Origin: a virus
Length of the DNA: 20,331 nt
Reading direction: 5' to 3' (one strand)
IMG/VR virus record: IMGVR_UViG_3300006916_000527
Location: 1 to 20,331 of that record
Under the pieces are notes generated by a model. It was not told the origin of the DNA and made no database searches. It worked only from the letters and a program-made list of their open reading frames with translations. The translations under genes and the position numbers were made by a program. Below, piece by piece: positions 9,068-14,729 of the stretch. The first letter of the stretch is position 1. Each line of letters opens with the position of its first letter.

Positions 9068-10782
9068 TGATTATATTCAGAACTTTGAAGTATAAAAACT
9101 TTTTATCGTCTGGAAACTATTTTACTAAGATTGATTTGGATAAAGAAATATCCACTTTGATTCTTGGTGCAAACGGTTCTGGTAAATCTACAATGCTTGA
9201 TGCGTTGTGTTTCGGGTTGTTTGGCAAGCCTTTTCGTAACATTAACAAACCACAATTACTTAACAGTATCAATCAAAAGAATGCGACAGTTGAGATTGAG
9301 TTTGATACGGGAAACAAATCCTACCGTGTTGTGCGTGGTATGAAACCAAACATCTTTGAGATTTATTGTAACGGTAAGATGCTCAATCAAGATGCTGCGG
9401 TTAGGGATTATCAAGATACTTTTGAGAAAGTAATTCTAAAACTTAATTATAAATCATTTACGCAGATTGTAATTCTGGGTAGCGCATCGTTCACTCCGTT
9501 TATGCAACTGTCTGCGTCTGACCGTCGTTCTATCATTGAAGACTTACTGGATATTCGTATCTTCTCTACGATGAACTCACTACTCAAAGAACGATATCAG
9601 AAACTAAAGAATGAACTTACAAATGTCAAGTACAAATCTGATTCTATAGAAGAACGAATAGAGGTACATCGCCAGTATATTGATGATATCAAAAAGGATA
9701 ACAAAGAGAAAGTCAATAACTTACGAGAACAGATTACTAACGAGCAAGAACAGATTGATTCTCGACTAGAAGAACTCAAGTGTTTACAGAAAAAGCATGA
9801 TGGTGTGGCAGATGAAGTCCGAGAAGCAGCATCTATCTCAGATAAAATCAAGAAACTAGAAGACGTACAAAAAGACCTCAAACGAACTAAGAAAAAAATT
9901 GATAGTGACATCTCTTTCTATGAAGACAATGATGAATGCCCTACTTGTAAGCAGGGTATCGAAGAACACTTCAAGAACGATATTCTTACCGAACGATCTG
10001 ATAAGAAATCTAAAGTTGATGATGGATTGCGTGAACTCAAACTCAAACACGCCGCAATGAAAAGTAAGATGGAAGTTATTCACGAGGCTATGGAACGAAT
10101 GAACAAACTGAAGATTCGTATATCATCGCTAGAGAATGAAAACAACGCATCTACAAAATACATTGGCTCATTGGAGGAAGAAGTTTCTAGATCATCGTTG
10201 TCGAAGACTAATATCAATGAACAGCAAGATAAACTCAAAGAGTTGGAACAAGAACTTGCTGAGAACGAAGAGCGTGTGAAAGTAATGCTCGAAGAGAAAC
10301 ACAACCAAGAGATTGCTGCACACTTACTCAAAGATACTGGTATCAAGACTAGGATTATCAAGCAGTATATTCCTATTATTAACAAGTTGGTGAATAAGTA
10401 TCTTGCGTCTATGGATTTCTTCGTGAATTTCAACCTAGACGAGTCGTTCAAGGAAACAATTAAGTCCAGACATCGTGATGACTTTTCGTATGCTTCATTC
10501 TCCGAAGGTGAGAAACAACGAATCGATATGGCGTTGATGCTAACTTGGAGAACGATTGCAAAACTAAAGAATTCAACTAGCACTAACATTCTGATTCTAG
10601 ATGAAGTCTTTGATTCGTCACTAGACAATAACGGTACAGAAGACTTAATGAAACTCTTGAATATGTTGGAAGCAACTAATTTGTTTGTTATCAGCCATAA
10701 AGGCGATATCTTACAAGACAAGTTTGCTGATGTTATCAAGTTTGAGAAACACAATAACTTTTCTAAGATGGTAGAACAATGA
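9067..10782 (+). CDS. 46: gp46, Rad50-like ATPase subunit (SbcC family)
   Basis: A 571-residue SMC-type ATPase matching T4 gp46 (560 residues). The Walker A motif GANGSGKST is at 34-42. A long coiled coil spans about residues 165-420. It is interrupted by a zinc hook CPTC (Cys291, Cys294), through which two molecules dimerise. The ABC signature SEGEKQR is at 479-485 and Walker B ILILDE at 508-513, with a His switch in FVISHKGD near 541-548. The start is GTG and overlaps the gene 47 stop (TAGTG), so it is probably coupled to gp47 translation. Its own stop overlaps the next ATG (ATGA). All ATPase elements are intact. Confidence 0.97.
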   Translation: MIIFRTLKYKNFLSSGNYFTKIDLDKEISTLILGANGSGKSTMLDALCFGLFGKPFRNINKPQLLNSINQKNATVEIEFDTGNKSYRVVRGMKPNIFEIYCNGKMLNQDAAVRDYQDTFEKVILKLNYKSFTQIVILGSASFTPFMQLSASDRRSIIEDLLDIRIFSTMNSLLKERYQKLKNELTNVKYKSDSIEERIEVHRQYIDDIKKDNKEKVNNLREQITNEQEQIDSRLEELKCLQKKHDGVADEVREAASISDKIKKLEDVQKDLKRTKKKIDSDISFYEDNDECPTCKQGIEEHFKNDILTERSDKKSKVDDGLRELKLKHAAMKSKMEVIHEAMERMNKLKIRISSLENENNASTKYIGSLEEEVSRSSLSKTNINEQQDKLKELEQELAENEERVKVMLEEKHNQEIAAHLLKDTGIKTRIIKQYIPIINKLVNKYLASMDFFVNFNLDESFKETIKSRHRDDFSYASFSEGEKQRIDMALMLTWRTIAKLKNSTSTNILILDEVFDSSLDNNGTEDLMKLLNMLEATNLFVISHKGDILQDKFADVIKFEKHNNFSKMVEQ

Positions 10783-11873
10783 AAGACTGGCAACACGGAT
10801 ATGATTTAGAATATTTAAAAGATCTTGAGAAGAAATTTTCAGATTATAATCAATATACTTTGTCACCATTCGCTAAGTATAAGAAAAATAATATTGCCGA
10901 ATCATTACACAAAAACACCTTGATACTTTTGGATGATGCTCGATTAGAAATCACTACATCGAAAGCAAGTTCAAAGATCAAATTATATGGCGATATTGTA
11001 ATCGGAAAAAAGGAAGTTGGAGATGTCACAATATCGAAACTGTCTGGAAATCTGCAAACGTTAGCGCATGCTATAGATGACTATAGTGACAACAATTGTT
11101 GGCTTTATGTGTGGGCAGAAAATAGCAAACATACATCATTAGCCAAAACTTGCGGATTTTGTGAGGTTGGACCTAAGATTACTTCTTATGGAGAAATTTA
11201 TAAAATCTTTTATAGAGGAGAAGATCGGGAATTTCCTATAGTAGATCCGGTAGAGTTTGTGGCAATTAAAAAGGTAGATGATGTCAGATTAGATTTGATT
11301 GAATCCATTCGTAGCAAGATTGAGGATTTGCCTGAATTTACTAATCACTATAGCAATTACAATAAAGGAAAGTCTTGGTCTGCTTTGTCTCTCAGAGGCT
11401 ACACAGCAGACCCTTCATTTATTACTAAGCCTAGCGAAATGAATGCTGCGTGGAAAAAAGATCACGAAACACTTGACTTTTACCTACAAGATAGTGTATT
11501 ATATGACTTGTTTCCGGAGGTTAGAGAGTTGATTGCTCCTTACGGGGATGATGTACATCGTGTTAGATTAATGCTATTAAAGCCTAAGACGGGGGAGTTG
11601 AGTAGACATACTGATCAAGTAGATCCCGATTCTGGAGGTTCTATTGGTAAATTATCAAGATTGCATTTTCCTATTGTGACAAACGATAAAGTTTTATTCA
11701 CGTCGTGGGATACTGACGGAGTAGAACATAATGTCAAAATGGATGTCGGTGAGTGTTGGTTTCTTGACACGAGGAAGCCACACAAAGCAGTAAACTTTGG
11801 TGATGAAGATAGAATTCATTTAGTTGTTGATATTGTTACTGAGAAATTTTTATATGACAAACTTATTGGCTGA
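10779..11873 (+). CDS. Two-domain protein: GNAT-like domain fused to Asp/Asn beta-hydroxylase-type 2-oxoglutarate oxygenase
   Basis: A 364-residue protein. The C-terminal domain (about 195-355) is a 2-oxoglutarate/Fe(II) dioxygenase resembling the aspartyl/asparaginyl beta-hydroxylase family. It has the His-x-Asp iron pair at His277/Asp279 (in LSRHTDQVD), a distal iron His at 335 (in RKPHKAVN) and the 2-oxoglutarate-binding Arg345 (in DRIHLVVDI). The N-terminal domain (about 1-147) looks like a GNAT acyltransferase fold. It has the late-strand pattern WLYVWAENSKHTSLAKTCGF followed by GEIYKIFYRG, but I do not see the acetyl-CoA loop Q/R-x-x-G-x-G/A, so acyl transfer is uncertain. The gene overlaps 46 by four bases and the next gene by 20. 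Substrate unknown: a protein side chain, free amino acid or DNA base are all possible. Confidence 0.78.
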   Translation: MKDWQHGYDLEYLKDLEKKFSDYNQYTLSPFAKYKKNNIAESLHKNTLILLDDARLEITTSKASSKIKLYGDIVIGKKEVGDVTISKLSGNLQTLAHAIDDYSDNNCWLYVWAENSKHTSLAKTCGFCEVGPKITSYGEIYKIFYRGEDREFPIVDPVEFVAIKKVDDVRLDLIESIRSKIEDLPEFTNHYSNYNKGKSWSALSLRGYTADPSFITKPSEMNAAWKKDHETLDFYLQDSVLYDLFPEVRELIAPYGDDVHRVRLMLLKPKTGELSRHTDQVDPDSGGSIGKLSRLHFPIVTNDKVLFTSWDTDGVEHNVKMDVGECWFLDTRKPHKAVNFGDEDRIHLVVDIVTEKFLYDKLIG

Positions 11874-12654
11874 AGATTATTTACAGTTGATTGCTGGTTG
11901 GCAAGACCCAAACCCCACACCCGTTATTGAAGAATACGATGGGGTATCTGTAGTGCGTGACGATTTGCTAAGTTATGGTAGCAAGATTCGTTTTATTGAT
12001 TACTTTATAGGTCACGCAGAAGAAAACAGAAATGTCAAAGAATGGGTGTTTGGGTCTTGCCCCGCAACAGGTTACGCACAGATTAGTCTGCCGGTCGTGT
12101 GCGAAAGGTACGGAAAGAAAGCCGTGCTGTTTATGGCAGAGCGTAGTATGGATAAACTCCATGACTACCAAAAGAGGGGGTTAGAACTCGGCGCAGAATA
12201 TCACTGGGTCAAAATGGGTATGCTCAATGTGACGCAATCGAAAGCACGTAAGTATGTAGAAGAGGACTCATCCACTCGCCGAGTTCTTCCCCTTGGATTA
12301 GAGCACGAAACTGTATTAGCATCTATTATTAAAGTTGCTAGAGAACTTCCTATTGTACCGGATGCTATATGGTCAGTAGGTTCTTCAGGAACTCTCAATA
12401 GAGGGCTTCAGTTAGCGTTTCCCGAATCAGAAATTCATGTAGTTCAAGTTGGACACTCTATGAAAGAAAGAGAGATTGGTCGAGCAATCCATCACATTTC
12501 TCCATATAAGTTTGACCGCCCAGTCAAGAAGCACGAGATACCACCTTTTCCGTCTGCACCTACGTATGACGCAAAAGGATGGCAACCTATGCTTGATTAT
12601 TATGAAACACATGACAAACCAAAAAATATTTTATATTGGAATGTTGCTTTTTAA
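11854..12654 (+). CDS. Fold-type II PLP enzyme, ACC deaminase/D-cysteine desulfhydrase-like
   Basis: A 266-residue protein resembling the tryptophan-synthase-beta superfamily of pyridoxal-phosphate enzymes. VRDDLLSYGSKIRFIDYF (about residues 34-51) parallels the KRDDL-x-GGNK-x-RKLEYL signature of ACC deaminase and D-cysteine desulfhydrase, making Lys44 the likely PLP-binding lysine. GSSGT at 176-180 fits the phosphate-binding glycine loop. The family's usual QSNH-like substrate loop is replaced by SCPATGYAQ (68-76). ACC deaminases are about 340 residues, so this is a short version. The ATG at 11854 was preferred over one at 11824 because the family similarity begins after it. It overlaps the oxygenase gene by 20 bases and probably shares a pathway with it. 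Substrate unknown. Confidence 0.72.
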   Translation: MTNLLAEDYLQLIAGWQDPNPTPVIEEYDGVSVVRDDLLSYGSKIRFIDYFIGHAEENRNVKEWVFGSCPATGYAQISLPVVCERYGKKAVLFMAERSMDKLHDYQKRGLELGAEYHWVKMGMLNVTQSKARKYVEEDSSTRRVLPLGLEHETVLASIIKVARELPIVPDAIWSVGSSGTLNRGLQLAFPESEIHVVQVGHSMKEREIGRAIHHISPYKFDRPVKKHEIPPFPSAPTYDAKGWQPMLDYYETHDKPKNILYWNVAF

Positions 12655-12696: not shown

Positions 12697-13161
12697 ATGA
12701 AAAGTAAATATAAGAAAGCATATATGAAAACGGCAAAAACATTTGCCGAACTTAGTTATGCCACACGAGCGCAAGTTGGTACGATTATTGTAAAAGATGA
12801 TCGCATTATTTCTATTGGTTACAATGGTATGCCATCCGGTTGGGATAACGAATGTGAGTATTACGATCCAAAAACAATTGAAGATTGGATGAATCCTTCT
12901 GACTACGACGTGTATTGTAGGAAGATCACAAAAGATGAAGTGTTACATGCAGAGACAAATGCTATAGCGAAAGTGGCACAGAGTTCTGAATCTTGTAAGG
13001 GTGGTGTGATGTTTACTACCCATATGCCTTGTATTAATTGTGCTAAATTAATACACCAGAGTGGTATTTCTGCAGTTTACTATGCAAATGATTACGATTC
13101 AAATGTAGGATCTGGTAAGCAGTTTTTACTTGATAGTAATGTAGAGTTGGAACAAGTATGA
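12697..13161 (+). CDS. dCMP deaminase
   Basis: A 154-residue zinc-dependent deoxycytidylate deaminase, which converts dCMP to dUMP and so feeds thymidylate synthesis. The zinc-site motifs are complete: HAE at 84-86 (His84 ligand, Glu86 proton shuttle) and PCINCAK at 111-117 (Cys112 and Cys115 ligands). The N-terminal VGTIIVKDDRIISIGYNG strand-loop (27-44) and the MPSG segment are typical. T4 encodes the equivalent enzyme (cd, 193 residues). It has its own probable promoter and a GGGAG ribosome site near 12684. Its stop overlaps the next start, so it is coupled to the methyltransferase gene. An intact active site argues for function. Confidence 0.93.
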   Translation: MKSKYKKAYMKTAKTFAELSYATRAQVGTIIVKDDRIISIGYNGMPSGWDNECEYYDPKTIEDWMNPSDYDVYCRKITKDEVLHAETNAIAKVAQSSESCKGGVMFTTHMPCINCAKLIHQSGISAVYYANDYDSNVGSGKQFLLDSNVELEQV

Positions 13162-14729
13162 TGAAAGTATTTTATGAAAAAAACGATTGGCTAATGGAGC
13201 ATCCAACAAACAAAACTTTTGAAGAAGTTATGTGTATGACTGACGAAGAGTTTGTTAATTGGTTTGTTGAGTTGCGCAAAGCGGTTGTATATGCTTGGGA
13301 TGAATTGGGATTTCCACCAAGAGTGGGCTACGATGAACAAGATATAAAAGATCAGTTTAAAAAAATGTATGGATATTCTGTTCATGAATTTGAAAAAATT
13401 GATGATAGCACCGGAGAATCTGATGTCATAAAAAACTCATCTAACTTAGGGAATGCGGCTAATCAATGGTTCCCCACTATGATGAAAACTCGAATCAATT
13501 ACAACGCTAATGATGATGGGCTTTCCATATACGATCATTTTAAAAATGATGAACTGTTAGAGAAAACTCTTAAATATGCTCGCCGACATTTCAAGCGTGA
13601 TTCTTTTTATTCATATTCTCTGACAGTAAAAGTTGGAGAAACGATTACTATAGGAAGTTTGAACCACACGGTAACCGATGCAAAAAGCTTCATTGAATGG
13701 TTTGAAAATAAAGCAAGGGTATATGATACGCATGATTATTGGATTGACCATAAGAAAGATACTGAGTATACAGGCTTCAAGGATGATCTAAGAAAAACTC
13801 AATTTCTTTGCTTGACAAAGGAGGAACTTTCCTGCTATAATATTCCCGAAACATGTAAAAAGAATGTTGGAGAAGATCGAGAGGGATTTATTTATCAGAT
13901 TCGAATCTATAAGAAAGGTCAAAAACTTTTCCCGATTGGATTGAAAGCATTTAGAATTTCTTGGTGTCAATATGCTGTCAACTTTCCTCCGATGACCGCT
14001 AAGTATTTGTATGAGAAATATACAAAGCATATTACTGATCAAGATACTATTAACCTCTACGATCCGTCAAGCGGATGGGGTGGAAGAATACTAGGTGCTA
14101 TGGCTGTAAGATCACCTAACAAAATCCATTACATTGGAACAGATCCGAACACCGATCATACAATATACGTTGATGGTAAAAAAACTACTAAATACGAACA
14201 CTTAGCTGATTTCTACAATCAGACTAAAAACGAGGGAACGCTATTCAAAAAGTCAAACACTTTCGATATCTATCAGTTGGGATCGGAAGTCATAGGTGAA
14301 GACGAGAACTTTCAAAAGTATCGTGGAAAATTGGACATGGTATTTACATCACCCCCATATTTTTCTAAAGAAGCATATTCGGAAGACGACGAACAATCGT
14401 ATAAAAAGTTTGATACGTATGAAGTTTGGAAAGACGGATTTCTGAGACAGACACTAAAGACTGCAGTAGAGTATCTAAGAAATGATCGATATCTTCTGTG
14501 GAACATTGCTGACATAAAACTCGGTAAAGATATGCTGCCATTAGAAGATGACAGCAAAGAAATTTTGGAAGAGCTTGGGATGGAATATAAAGGATTCTTG
14601 AAGATGGCTCTCGCAAAGATGCCTGGAGGAAACAGAGTTTCCGACGAGCAAGCAACTTTTAAAAATAGTTGCGTGATAAATGGTTCTATTCATAAGTATG
14701 AACCTATATTTGTTTACTACAAACCTTAA
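13158..14729 (+). CDS. Large SAM-dependent DNA methyltransferase-like protein (TSPPY motif)
   Basis: A 523-residue protein. The C-terminal half is a class I methyltransferase: the SAM-binding motif I DPSSGWGGR is at 302-310, an acidic YIGTDPNT strand follows near 328-335, and catalytic motif IV TSPPY is at 397-401. The (T/S)SPPY form is typical of beta-type N4-cytosine and some N6-adenine amino-methyltransferases. The N-terminal 290 residues are not recognised and could bind the target. They include a FPPRVGYDE segment and a repeated Tyr/Phe-rich region. The order motif I before motif IV is that of gamma/alpha-type enzymes. No restriction endonuclease is next to it, so it may protect phage DNA or be an orphan modifier. 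Either of two adjacent ATGs (13158, 13161) may be the start. Confidence 0.75.
   Translation: MMKVFYEKNDWLMEHPTNKTFEEVMCMTDEEFVNWFVELRKAVVYAWDELGFPPRVGYDEQDIKDQFKKMYGYSVHEFEKIDDSTGESDVIKNSSNLGNAANQWFPTMMKTRINYNANDDGLSIYDHFKNDELLEKTLKYARRHFKRDSFYSYSLTVKVGETITIGSLNHTVTDAKSFIEWFENKARVYDTHDYWIDHKKDTEYTGFKDDLRKTQFLCLTKEELSCYNIPETCKKNVGEDREGFIYQIRIYKKGQKLFPIGLKAFRISWCQYAVNFPPMTAKYLYEKYTKHITDQDTINLYDPSSGWGGRILGAMAVRSPNKIHYIGTDPNTDHTIYVDGKKTTKYEHLADFYNQTKNEGTLFKKSNTFDIYQLGSEVIGEDENFQKYRGKLDMVFTSPPYFSKEAYSEDDEQSYKKFDTYEVWKDGFLRQTLKTAVEYLRNDRYLLWNIADIKLGKDMLPLEDDSKEILEELGMEYKGFLKMALAKMPGGNRVSDEQATFKNSCVINGSIHKYEPIFVYYKP

Follow-up and report, generated by a model that had tools for sequence, protein, structure and literature searches.

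The 5-NedU cassette of Pseudomonas phage M6 comprises a dUMP hydroxymethylase, a 5hmdU kinase, an aGPT-Pplase/ADDT, a radical SAM enzyme and the PLP protein gp52 (PMC9476957). In the 5-carboxymethylcytosine system CmoA/CmoX/CmoY from Synechococcus phage S-B43, CmoX, a phage homologue of DNA methyltransferases, takes from a SAM analogue a group other than methyl and transfers it (PMC12783734). Related chemistry is also found in antibiotic pathways, where the PLP enzyme Mur24 transfers the 3-amino-3-carboxypropyl (acp) group from SAM (PMC10491745), the PLP enzyme Mur23 decarboxylates acp, and Cpz10 hydroxylates a C4 side chain of SAM origin on glycyluridine (PMC9814697).

We analyzed a viral DNA stretch of 20,331 nucleotides (IMG/VR record IMGVR_UViG_3300006916_000527, positions 1 to 20,331; hereafter the window) that encodes, all on the plus strand, a GNAT-fold and 2OG/Fe(II) oxygenase fusion (X), a fold-type II PLP enzyme (Y) and an amino-methyltransferase-like protein (MT). 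Like the M6 cassette, this triad adjoins replication genes and contains a PLP enzyme of the same PHROG, and in the mechanism proposed below it too would rework the side chain of an alpha-amino acid linked to a base; unlike that cassette, it has neither hydroxymethylase nor ADDT, has an amino-methyltransferase-like enzyme where the amino acid transferase would be, and includes a 2OG oxygenase as well. With the Cmo system it would share a DNA methyltransferase homologue repurposed for a non-methyl SAM-derivative group that is then hypermodified, so CmoX offers a precedent for the MT step. CmoX, however, is a C5-cytosine methyltransferase using Cx-SAM, whereas MT belongs to the N4/N6 amino type, and the partners in the MT systems are instead a PLP enzyme, a 2OG oxygenase or a SAM decarboxylase. 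Caprazamycin and muraymycin tailoring likewise places a SAM-derived aminocarboxypropyl group on a nucleoside amine, followed by Asp/Asn-hydroxylase-like beta-hydroxylation or PLP decarboxylation, and Cpz10 is the best fold match of X; yet the product there is a small-molecule antibiotic rather than polymer DNA, and the enzyme that moves acp is PLP-dependent, no MTase-fold protein taking part. X has the fold and the iron and 2OG ligands of AspH and other PF05118 beta-hydroxylases, but differs from them in its GNAT-fold N-terminal half, the lack of a TPR region and its DNA-modification context. With phage Mu Mom it has the GNAT fold alone in common, at the fold level.

X and Y are intact overlapping genes with conserved catalytic residues

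X (364 aa; 10779..11873) is an intact ORF with full-length homologues in viral contigs, and its second half is predicted to be a 2OG oxygenase of the Asp/Asn-beta-hydroxylase type. Residues 174-353 match Asp_Arg_Hydrox PF05118 in Pfam (E=6e-11; 42.9 bits against a curated cut-off of 22.6), and in the AlphaFold2 model (pLDDT 92.4, pTM 0.88) the double-stranded beta-helix domain (residues 155-360; 11241..11858) matches 7v4m (Cpz10, Z 16.0), 4p7w (Z 15.4) and 5jqy (AspH, Z 14.7), with Cpz10 and an L-proline hydroxylase among the nearest solved structures. The preliminary description had placed the oxygenase site at residues 277, 279, 335 and 345, and all four are invariant in an alignment of 43 homologues that includes one mycobacteriophage protein: H277-x-D279 (11607..11615) and H335 (11781..11783) are the predicted iron ligands, and R345 (11811..11813) is the predicted 2-oxoglutarate-binding arginine. 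It had also called the other half GNAT-like, which is right at the fold level, as residues 9-150 (10803..11228) superpose on the GNAT 2pc1 (Z 11.8, rmsd 3.8, 137 aligned). A Pfam search of this half gave no match, and the R/Q-x-x-G-x-G/A acetyl-CoA pyrophosphate loop of GNATs is not recognisable in the alignment, where X reads VTISKLSGNL and the family consensus is TIxKLxGxxxxL.

The ORF of Y (266 aa; 11854..12654) is intact as well and overlaps X by 20 nt, in line with the overlapping genes described before, when it is read from ATG 11854; this start is preferred over the ORF caller's TTG 11824 because of where the relatives start. Y belongs to the M6 gp52 family: it matches phrog_7093 (E=3e-33), to which gp52 also belongs (E=2e-159), and direct BLASTP between the two gives E=1e-11. 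The lysine singled out earlier as the plausible PLP residue, K44 (11983..11985), is invariant in 27 homologues including gp52, which supports its presumed role as the Schiff-base lysine, and S178 and G179 of the phosphate-binding SSG loop are invariant in the alignment. Y scores below the Pfam cut-off for PALP, while the Mae-JY30 and M6 proteins score above it, and a PDB sequence search with the PLP and MT profiles found no matches. The M6 thymidine pathway is said to include a PLP-dependent decarboxylase. The genes are under purifying selection, with dN/dS of about 0.04-0.19.

X and Y have a constant partner in MT

MT (523 aa; 13158..14729) matches PF01555 right at the Pfam cut-off of 26.7 and phrog_12517 with E=1.8e-13, and Pfam and PHROG searches place it there rather than in the C5-cytosine methyltransferase families. 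It has the SAM-methyltransferase fold (Z 14.5), and its top fold matches are the RNA amino-methyltransferases Trm11, Trm14 and METTL5 (Z 13.4-14.5). In an alignment of 24 sequences, R310 of the SAM-binding motif I (DPSSGWGGR, residues 302-310; 14061..14087) is invariant, as is the catalytic motif IV (TSPPYF, residues 397-402; 14346..14363), an instance of the [DSN]PP[YFW] motif of N4/N6 amino-methyltransferases. The N-terminal ~260 aa showed no clear fold partner in a query with the whole model, a result that does not imply a new fold.

X, Y and MT recur together in many aquatic viruses: all three are present within the fetched stretch in 53 of 99 merged viral loci, and most of the remaining loci are cut or miss just the PLP gene. 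The order is OXY-PLP-MT in 48 loci and MT-OXY-PLP in five, and in G022 and G023 the three genes are all present but dispersed. Among 84,980 cellular genomes, X was found on a single MAG contig, likely phage, which bears the whole triad. Co-occurrence of X and Y, proposed earlier as a check, is thus strong, but the conserved unit is the X-Y-MT triad and not the X-Y pair. The preliminary description had overlooked MT as the constant partner. The idea that the pair works on one substrate gains from the co-occurrence, and of the substrates then listed DNA bases are now favoured; what did not stand is the pair itself as the unit.

The dCMP deaminase between Y and MT (12697..13161) is an optional neighbour outside the unit; many loci lack it there, and with its position variable or the gene absent we rejected it as a pathway member. 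The peptide deformylase (c3) and CobS/CobT-like genes, named as judged from sequence, are frequent cassette neighbours in T4-like genomes, and they were rejected as cassette parts since they are missing where the triad relocates.

Other arrangements of the genes were also found. The X homologue of phage LilMcDreamy adjoins an amino acid:DNA transferase and a TET-like oxygenase, and LilMcDreamy gp4 as query against viral contigs returned only itself. One clade has X and MT without the PLP gene; the prediction that such PLP-less T4-like phages carry a SAM decarboxylase (SAMDC) held in only one of the clade's three long contigs. PfAn1 has separate GNAT and hydroxylase genes among its virion genes, and DC33 has them near an apparent terminase, in both cases with no PLP or MT gene.

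PLP and SAM decarboxylase genes alternate beside related methyltransferases

MT is distant kin (hhalign 96.4% over 82 columns) to phage ParB-methyltransferases (ParB-MTs), and the extended motif IV [ST][SC]PPYxxxExYS is common to both. In a second, siphovirus-like PLP subfamily, an MT-related amino-methyltransferase lies beside the PLP gene in 79 of 80 loci (median gap 27 bp), and ParB is present in 74; the 80 loci contain no X and no ADDT. The PLP domain is embedded within the ParB-MT polypeptide itself in ZS04 and Pam4, while in Vincenzo and L061/L068 other fold-type II PLP families take the slot. PLP-MT is the core of the module. Cultured phages with MT and PLP infect Erythrobacter (ZS04, R6L), Microcystis (Mae-JY30), Pseudanabaena (Pam4) and Mycobacterium smegmatis (Vincenzo, AlanGrant).

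A SAM decarboxylase retaining the catalytic motif ESHxxIHTFPE...C adjoins other ParB-MTs in 72 of 80 contigs, mostly with overlapping genes, and does so also in the isolates P2559S, a Croceibacter phage, and ZRG1, a Stutzerimonas phage. PLP and SAMDC are mutually exclusive within the two sets (0/80 and 0/80). The SAM loop follows this division: it is of the AGGSVRG type in all PLP-linked MTs and keeps the G and R in five of five unpartnered MTs, but reads AGD[ST]VFG in the SAMDC-linked ones, a change from G..R to D..F. As the SAMDC-linked MTs group together in a single clade (support 0.988), the loop switch is a single evolutionary event. The unpartnered ParB-MTs, those of B054, FL3A and Funu2, may be plain methyltransferases.

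A proposed mechanism and its alternatives

X, Y and MT probably form a cassette for hypermodifying nucleic-acid bases, with the phage's own DNA as the most likely substrate. DNA bases are favoured because Y is in the M6 hypermodification family, MT belongs with the N4/N6 amino-methyltransferases and the LilMcDreamy homologue of X has the neighbourhood described above. The mechanism itself has to be inferred from the partners of MT. We tentatively suggest that what MT transfers from SAM is the acp chain, which stems from methionine, rather than the methyl group, and that it attaches this chain to an exocyclic amine, at adenine N6 or cytosine N4, which would yield a base-linked alpha-amino acid. 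Y would then act on the alpha-carbon, most likely by decarboxylation to a 3-aminopropyl chain, and hydroxylation of the side chain would fall to the Asp/Asn-beta-hydroxylase-type domain of X, with the GNAT-fold half serving in product binding, product acylation or recognition. In other phages, SAM would be decarboxylated first by SAMDC, and the related MT would transfer the aminopropyl product directly. This sequence of acp transfer, trimming and hydroxylation on DNA bases is our best reading, held with less than even confidence. Counting for it are the kinship of X with Cpz10, the hydroxylase of a side chain that a nucleoside has received from SAM, the persistent linkage of the genes, the alternation of PLP and SAMDC beside related MTs, and the SAM-loop switch that goes with it. 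Against the acp step counts that the SAMDC association belongs to ParB-MTs of other phages, distant from the MT of the window; a decarboxylase role for Y faces the point that PLP decarboxylases of fold-type II are unusual. The single origin of the loop switch, the unpartnered ParB-MTs and the clade with X and MT that lacks the PLP gene, and mostly SAMDC too, also weigh against this reading.

The main competitor, though unlikely, is that MT simply methylates cytosine at N4 or adenine at N6, as an ordinary methyltransferase guarding phage DNA would, with X and Y acting on a protein or free amino acid and linked to it merely via a shared take-over region. The PF01555 match, the TSPPY motif, the existence of unpartnered ParB-MTs and the glycine-rich SAM loop with its arginine, kept in the PLP-linked and unpartnered MTs, all fit this. 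However, it sits poorly with a linkage that survives rearrangement, dispersal and fusion, with the near-constant PLP-MT adjacency in unrelated phages, and with a SAM decarboxylase partner, which would be pointless if SAM served as a methyl donor. We consider it improbable that Y itself builds the side chain as Mur24 does, eliminating methylthioadenosine from SAM and joining the resulting vinylglycine intermediate to the amine of the base, while MT flips the base or delivers SAM and X then hydroxylates. Mur24, LipJ and Cpz13 do perform this reaction on a nucleoside amine (PMC10491745), the X relative Cpz10 hydroxylates the product (PMC9814697), and the PLP insertion within MT in ZS04 and Pam4 would suit it; yet Y is a PALP-like protein of fold-type II in the M6 family, unlike the Mur24-type enzymes with their resemblance to ACC synthases, and neither the SAMDC alternation nor the phages that have X and MT without PLP would be explained.

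Two further substrates seem to us rather improbable, each to a similar degree. RNA (tRNA or rRNA), modified in the manner of acp3U or wybutosine, would agree with the fold matches of MT to Trm11, Trm14 and METTL5, and tRNA is known to be modified with acp. Yet a member of Y's family belongs to a phage cassette that modifies DNA, and the related MTs carry or neighbour ParB-like domains, which are known fused to DNA methyltransferases (PMC12783734). X might instead hydroxylate and acylate a virion or host protein, with Y a separate amino-acid enzyme: AspH works on protein domains, and the adjacent GNAT and hydroxylase genes of PfAn1 and DC33 make protein modification possible and count against DNA bases, but X and its homologues lie beside DNA-modifying enzymes in T4-like genomes and in LilMcDreamy. 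A thymidine (5hmdU) hypermodification pathway of the M6 or ViI type, to which the shared PHROG of Y and gp52 might point, is very improbable, and we rejected the M6-type route: the dUMP hydroxymethylase (PF00303) was found in 0 of 22 records, some of them fragments, and 19 T4-like relatives, some of 143-176 kb, have no thymidylate-synthase-type hydroxymethylase, TET-like oxygenase or amino acid:DNA transferase (PF18724), the last occurring only in LilMcDreamy.

Implications

The proposed reactions could, we cautiously suggest, represent a new class of DNA hypermodification, in which phage N4/N6-type 'methyltransferases' put acp from SAM, or 3-aminopropyl from dcSAM, on exocyclic amines of DNA with the help of PLP decarboxylase, SAM decarboxylase and Asp-hydroxylase-type partners. 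If so, the ParB-methyltransferase annotation of many phage genes would be wrong, phage SAM decarboxylases adjoining 'methyltransferases' would gain a role, and the 'threonine dehydratase', 'aspartyl hydroxylase' and 'DNA methylase' families of the databases would be united in one pathway. Base nitrogens bearing an amino acid or amine that comes from SAM would be a chemistry unreported for DNA in the literature we searched. The modification would perhaps disguise the virus DNA from bacterial defences and protect it from host nucleases, and its cationic or zwitterionic bases may help phages evade restriction and CRISPR.

X, Y and MT form a conserved triad

The window, which is the entire virus record of 20,331 bases, derives from a T4-like myovirus, and the capsid proteins nearest to its own are those of Pelagibacter phage Mosig (65%) and Methylophilales phage Melnitz (63.5%). 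Between the gp46 and gp45/gp44 genes, four plus-strand genes whose ends overlap or nearly meet encode the GNAT-fold/oxygenase fusion X (10779-11873), the PLP enzyme Y (11854-12654), a dCMP deaminase (12697-13161) and the amino-methyltransferase-like protein MT (13158-14729). The preliminary description of X and Y as paired enzymes with intact catalytic residues was confirmed, and X, Y and MT are all under purifying selection. A perfect sigma-70 consensus (TTGACA-18-TATAAT, with TG) lies within the MT coding region at 13812-13841.

Scans of viral contigs found X in 156 and Y in 172. When near-identical stretches were merged into 99 loci, X, Y and MT occurred together in 53, X with MT in 17 and X with Y in 13, many of these being cut by a contig end. 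The expected co-occurrence of X and Y across phages was thus borne out, together with MT, and the reading of the two as a functional pair was partly right: MT had to be added as a third member, and the conserved unit is the triad, not the pair. The nearby dCMP deaminase is variably present. One group of loci has the order MT-X-Y away from gp46, and in two contigs (G022, G023) all three genes are present yet dispersed, so that synteny alone is insufficient to account for the linkage. L061 and L068 carry, in place of Y between X and MT, a member of another PLP family, phrog_3650.

Several individual loci carry further features. The sole X match among 84,980 cellular genomes, L103 (DTRI01000197.1, a MAG labelled Flavobacteriales), carries gp46-X-PLP-MT and is therefore probably phage DNA that was placed in a bacterial bin. 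Glycosyltransferase genes near or directly after PLP (L154, 4891-5640, and L119, 5789-7138; GT_PLOD E=2e-32 and Glycos_transf_1, weak) possibly provide a further step on a hydroxylated chain. Two tandem MT paralogues immediately follow PLP in L161, L162 and L173 (contigs G033, G034 and G040), and an aspartate-carbamoyltransferase-like gene, judged from sequence only, lies immediately 3' of PLP in L088 (9614-10564).

PLP and MT partners in other phages

Y, of PLP fold-type II, falls in phrog_7093 together with phage M6 gp52, and the lysine predicted earlier, K44, is invariant in 27 homologues. The C-terminal half of MT is N4/N6 amino-methyltransferase-like (motif I DPSSGWGGR, motif IV TSPPYF; E=1.8e-13 to phrog_12517), while its ~260 N-terminal residues have no assigned family. 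Profile-profile comparison with the ParB-like/amino-methyltransferase proteins of other phages (ParB-MTs) gave a probability of 96.4% across an 82-column stretch at motif IV, and both share the extended motif [ST][SC]PPYxxxExYS; by these matches and that to phrog_12517, MT is a distant relative of the ParB-MTs.

Siphovirus-like phages carry a second subfamily of the PLP enzyme, to which the one in Microcystis phage Mae-JY30 belongs. Of its 155 matching loci, 80 were fetched; 79 of these carry a phrog_12517/498-type amino-methyltransferase, separated from PLP by a median of 27 bp and in 77 cases by no more than 500 bp, and 74 also a ParB-like domain, while X and amino acid:DNA transferase are each found in 0 of the 80. 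The ParB-MT polypeptides of Erythrobacter ZS04 and Pseudanabaena Pam4 have the PLP domain embedded in them, and in mycobacteriophage Vincenzo another PALP-family gene is overlapped by ParB-MT. By gene content, PLP and MT are the core.

In one other ParB-MT branch, a SAM decarboxylase gene overlaps or abuts ParB-MT (isolates P2559S, L302, and ZRG1, L388), as in 72 of the 80 viral contigs (L303-L382) fetched with the P2559S enzyme. This decarboxylase keeps the catalytic ESHxxIHTFPE...C pattern (PF02675 E=2e-19), and PLP and SAM decarboxylase are mutually exclusive in both sets (0/80 and 0/80). The SAM-binding loop contains a Gly and an Arg (AGG-x-x-R type) in every PLP-linked MT and in five unpartnered MTs; in the decarboxylase-linked MTs it reads AGD-[ST]-V-F (AGD[ST]VFG). 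Loss of Arg and gain of Asp are expected if the donor lacks the SAM carboxylate, although these MTs form one clade (support 0.988) and the switch is to be weighed as a single event. An ordinary methyltransferase would have no obvious need of decarboxylated SAM, which usually donates its 3-aminopropyl group in aminopropyltransferases such as spermidine synthase. This suggests that the decarboxylase-linked ParB-MT is a candidate DNA aminopropyltransferase. The MT of the window keeps an invariant arginine, R310, in an equivalent loop pattern (by motif, not by profile alignment), so SAM itself should be its donor.

Fold and possible substrates of X

The AlphaFold2 model of X (pLDDT 92.4, pTM 0.88) has two domains, a GNAT fold at residues 9-150 (Z 11.8 to 2pc1) and, by fold comparison, a double-stranded beta-helix at residues 155-360, in which the previously proposed iron ligands and 2OG arginine proved invariant in 43 sequences. 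The top fold match is Cpz10 (7v4m, Z 16.0), which in caprazamycin synthesis beta-hydroxylates a SAM-derived C4 chain on glycyluridine; alternatively, its substrate compound is decarboxylated by the PLP enzyme Mur23 (PMC9814697). The chain is placed by another PLP enzyme, Mur24/Cpz13 (PMC10491745). Since L-proline hydroxylase (Z 15.4) and AspH (Z 14.7) tie with Cpz10, the modelled fold supports an amino-acid-type substrate and singles out no particular compound.

The gene context in mycobacteriophage LilMcDreamy, where genes for a TET-like oxygenase and an amino acid:DNA transferase precede the X homologue, further links X to DNA modification. The set resembles the ParB, TET-like and aGPT-Pplase2 series of Rhodococcus phage Tonitrus, interpreted as thymidine hypermodification (PMC11955845). 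In two Bclasvirinae phages, the same terminase-side genome end holds differing modification sets: ParB, TET-like, ADDT and X homologue in LilMcDreamy (L002, 1-3759), and ParB-MT and PLP in Vincenzo (L299, 1-2275). X may also act on a protein: its two domains occur as unfused, adjacent Asp-hydroxylase and GNAT genes (L215, 4755-5819; L216, 4791-5863), which in PfAn1 lie amid virion genes and in DC33 are next to a gene that probably encodes a terminase. RNA may likewise be the substrate of MT, with whose fold matches it is compatible.

A candidate base-hypermodification pathway

We consider it probable that X, Y and MT constitute a base-hypermodification cassette. An M6-type pathway (thymidine hypermodification through 5hmdU) was looked for among 19 T4-like relatives and not found. 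In a search of open-licence PubMed Central, outside which the main M6 papers lie, neither the X, Y and MT module nor aminopropyl or aminocarboxypropyl DNA was found described. For the cassette's chemistry we propose a complete scheme tentatively, at somewhat below even chances. MT would take the 3-amino-3-carboxypropyl (acp) chain from SAM and attach it to an exocyclic amine, giving a base-linked alpha-amino acid; CmoX, likewise a DNA-methyltransferase homologue that moves a non-methyl group, is an experimental precedent (PMC12783734). Y, from its family, would act at the alpha-carbon, most likely by decarboxylation, and X, from its fold, would hydroxylate the chain. Counting against the scheme, some ParB-MTs have neither PLP nor SAM decarboxylase as partner, and there are phages with X and MT and no PLP, two of the three long ones also lacking SAM decarboxylase; in the phages with X and MT and no PLP, the proposed pathway would end with a hydroxylated acp base. 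The modification made by X, Y and MT would shield phage DNA from host nucleases.
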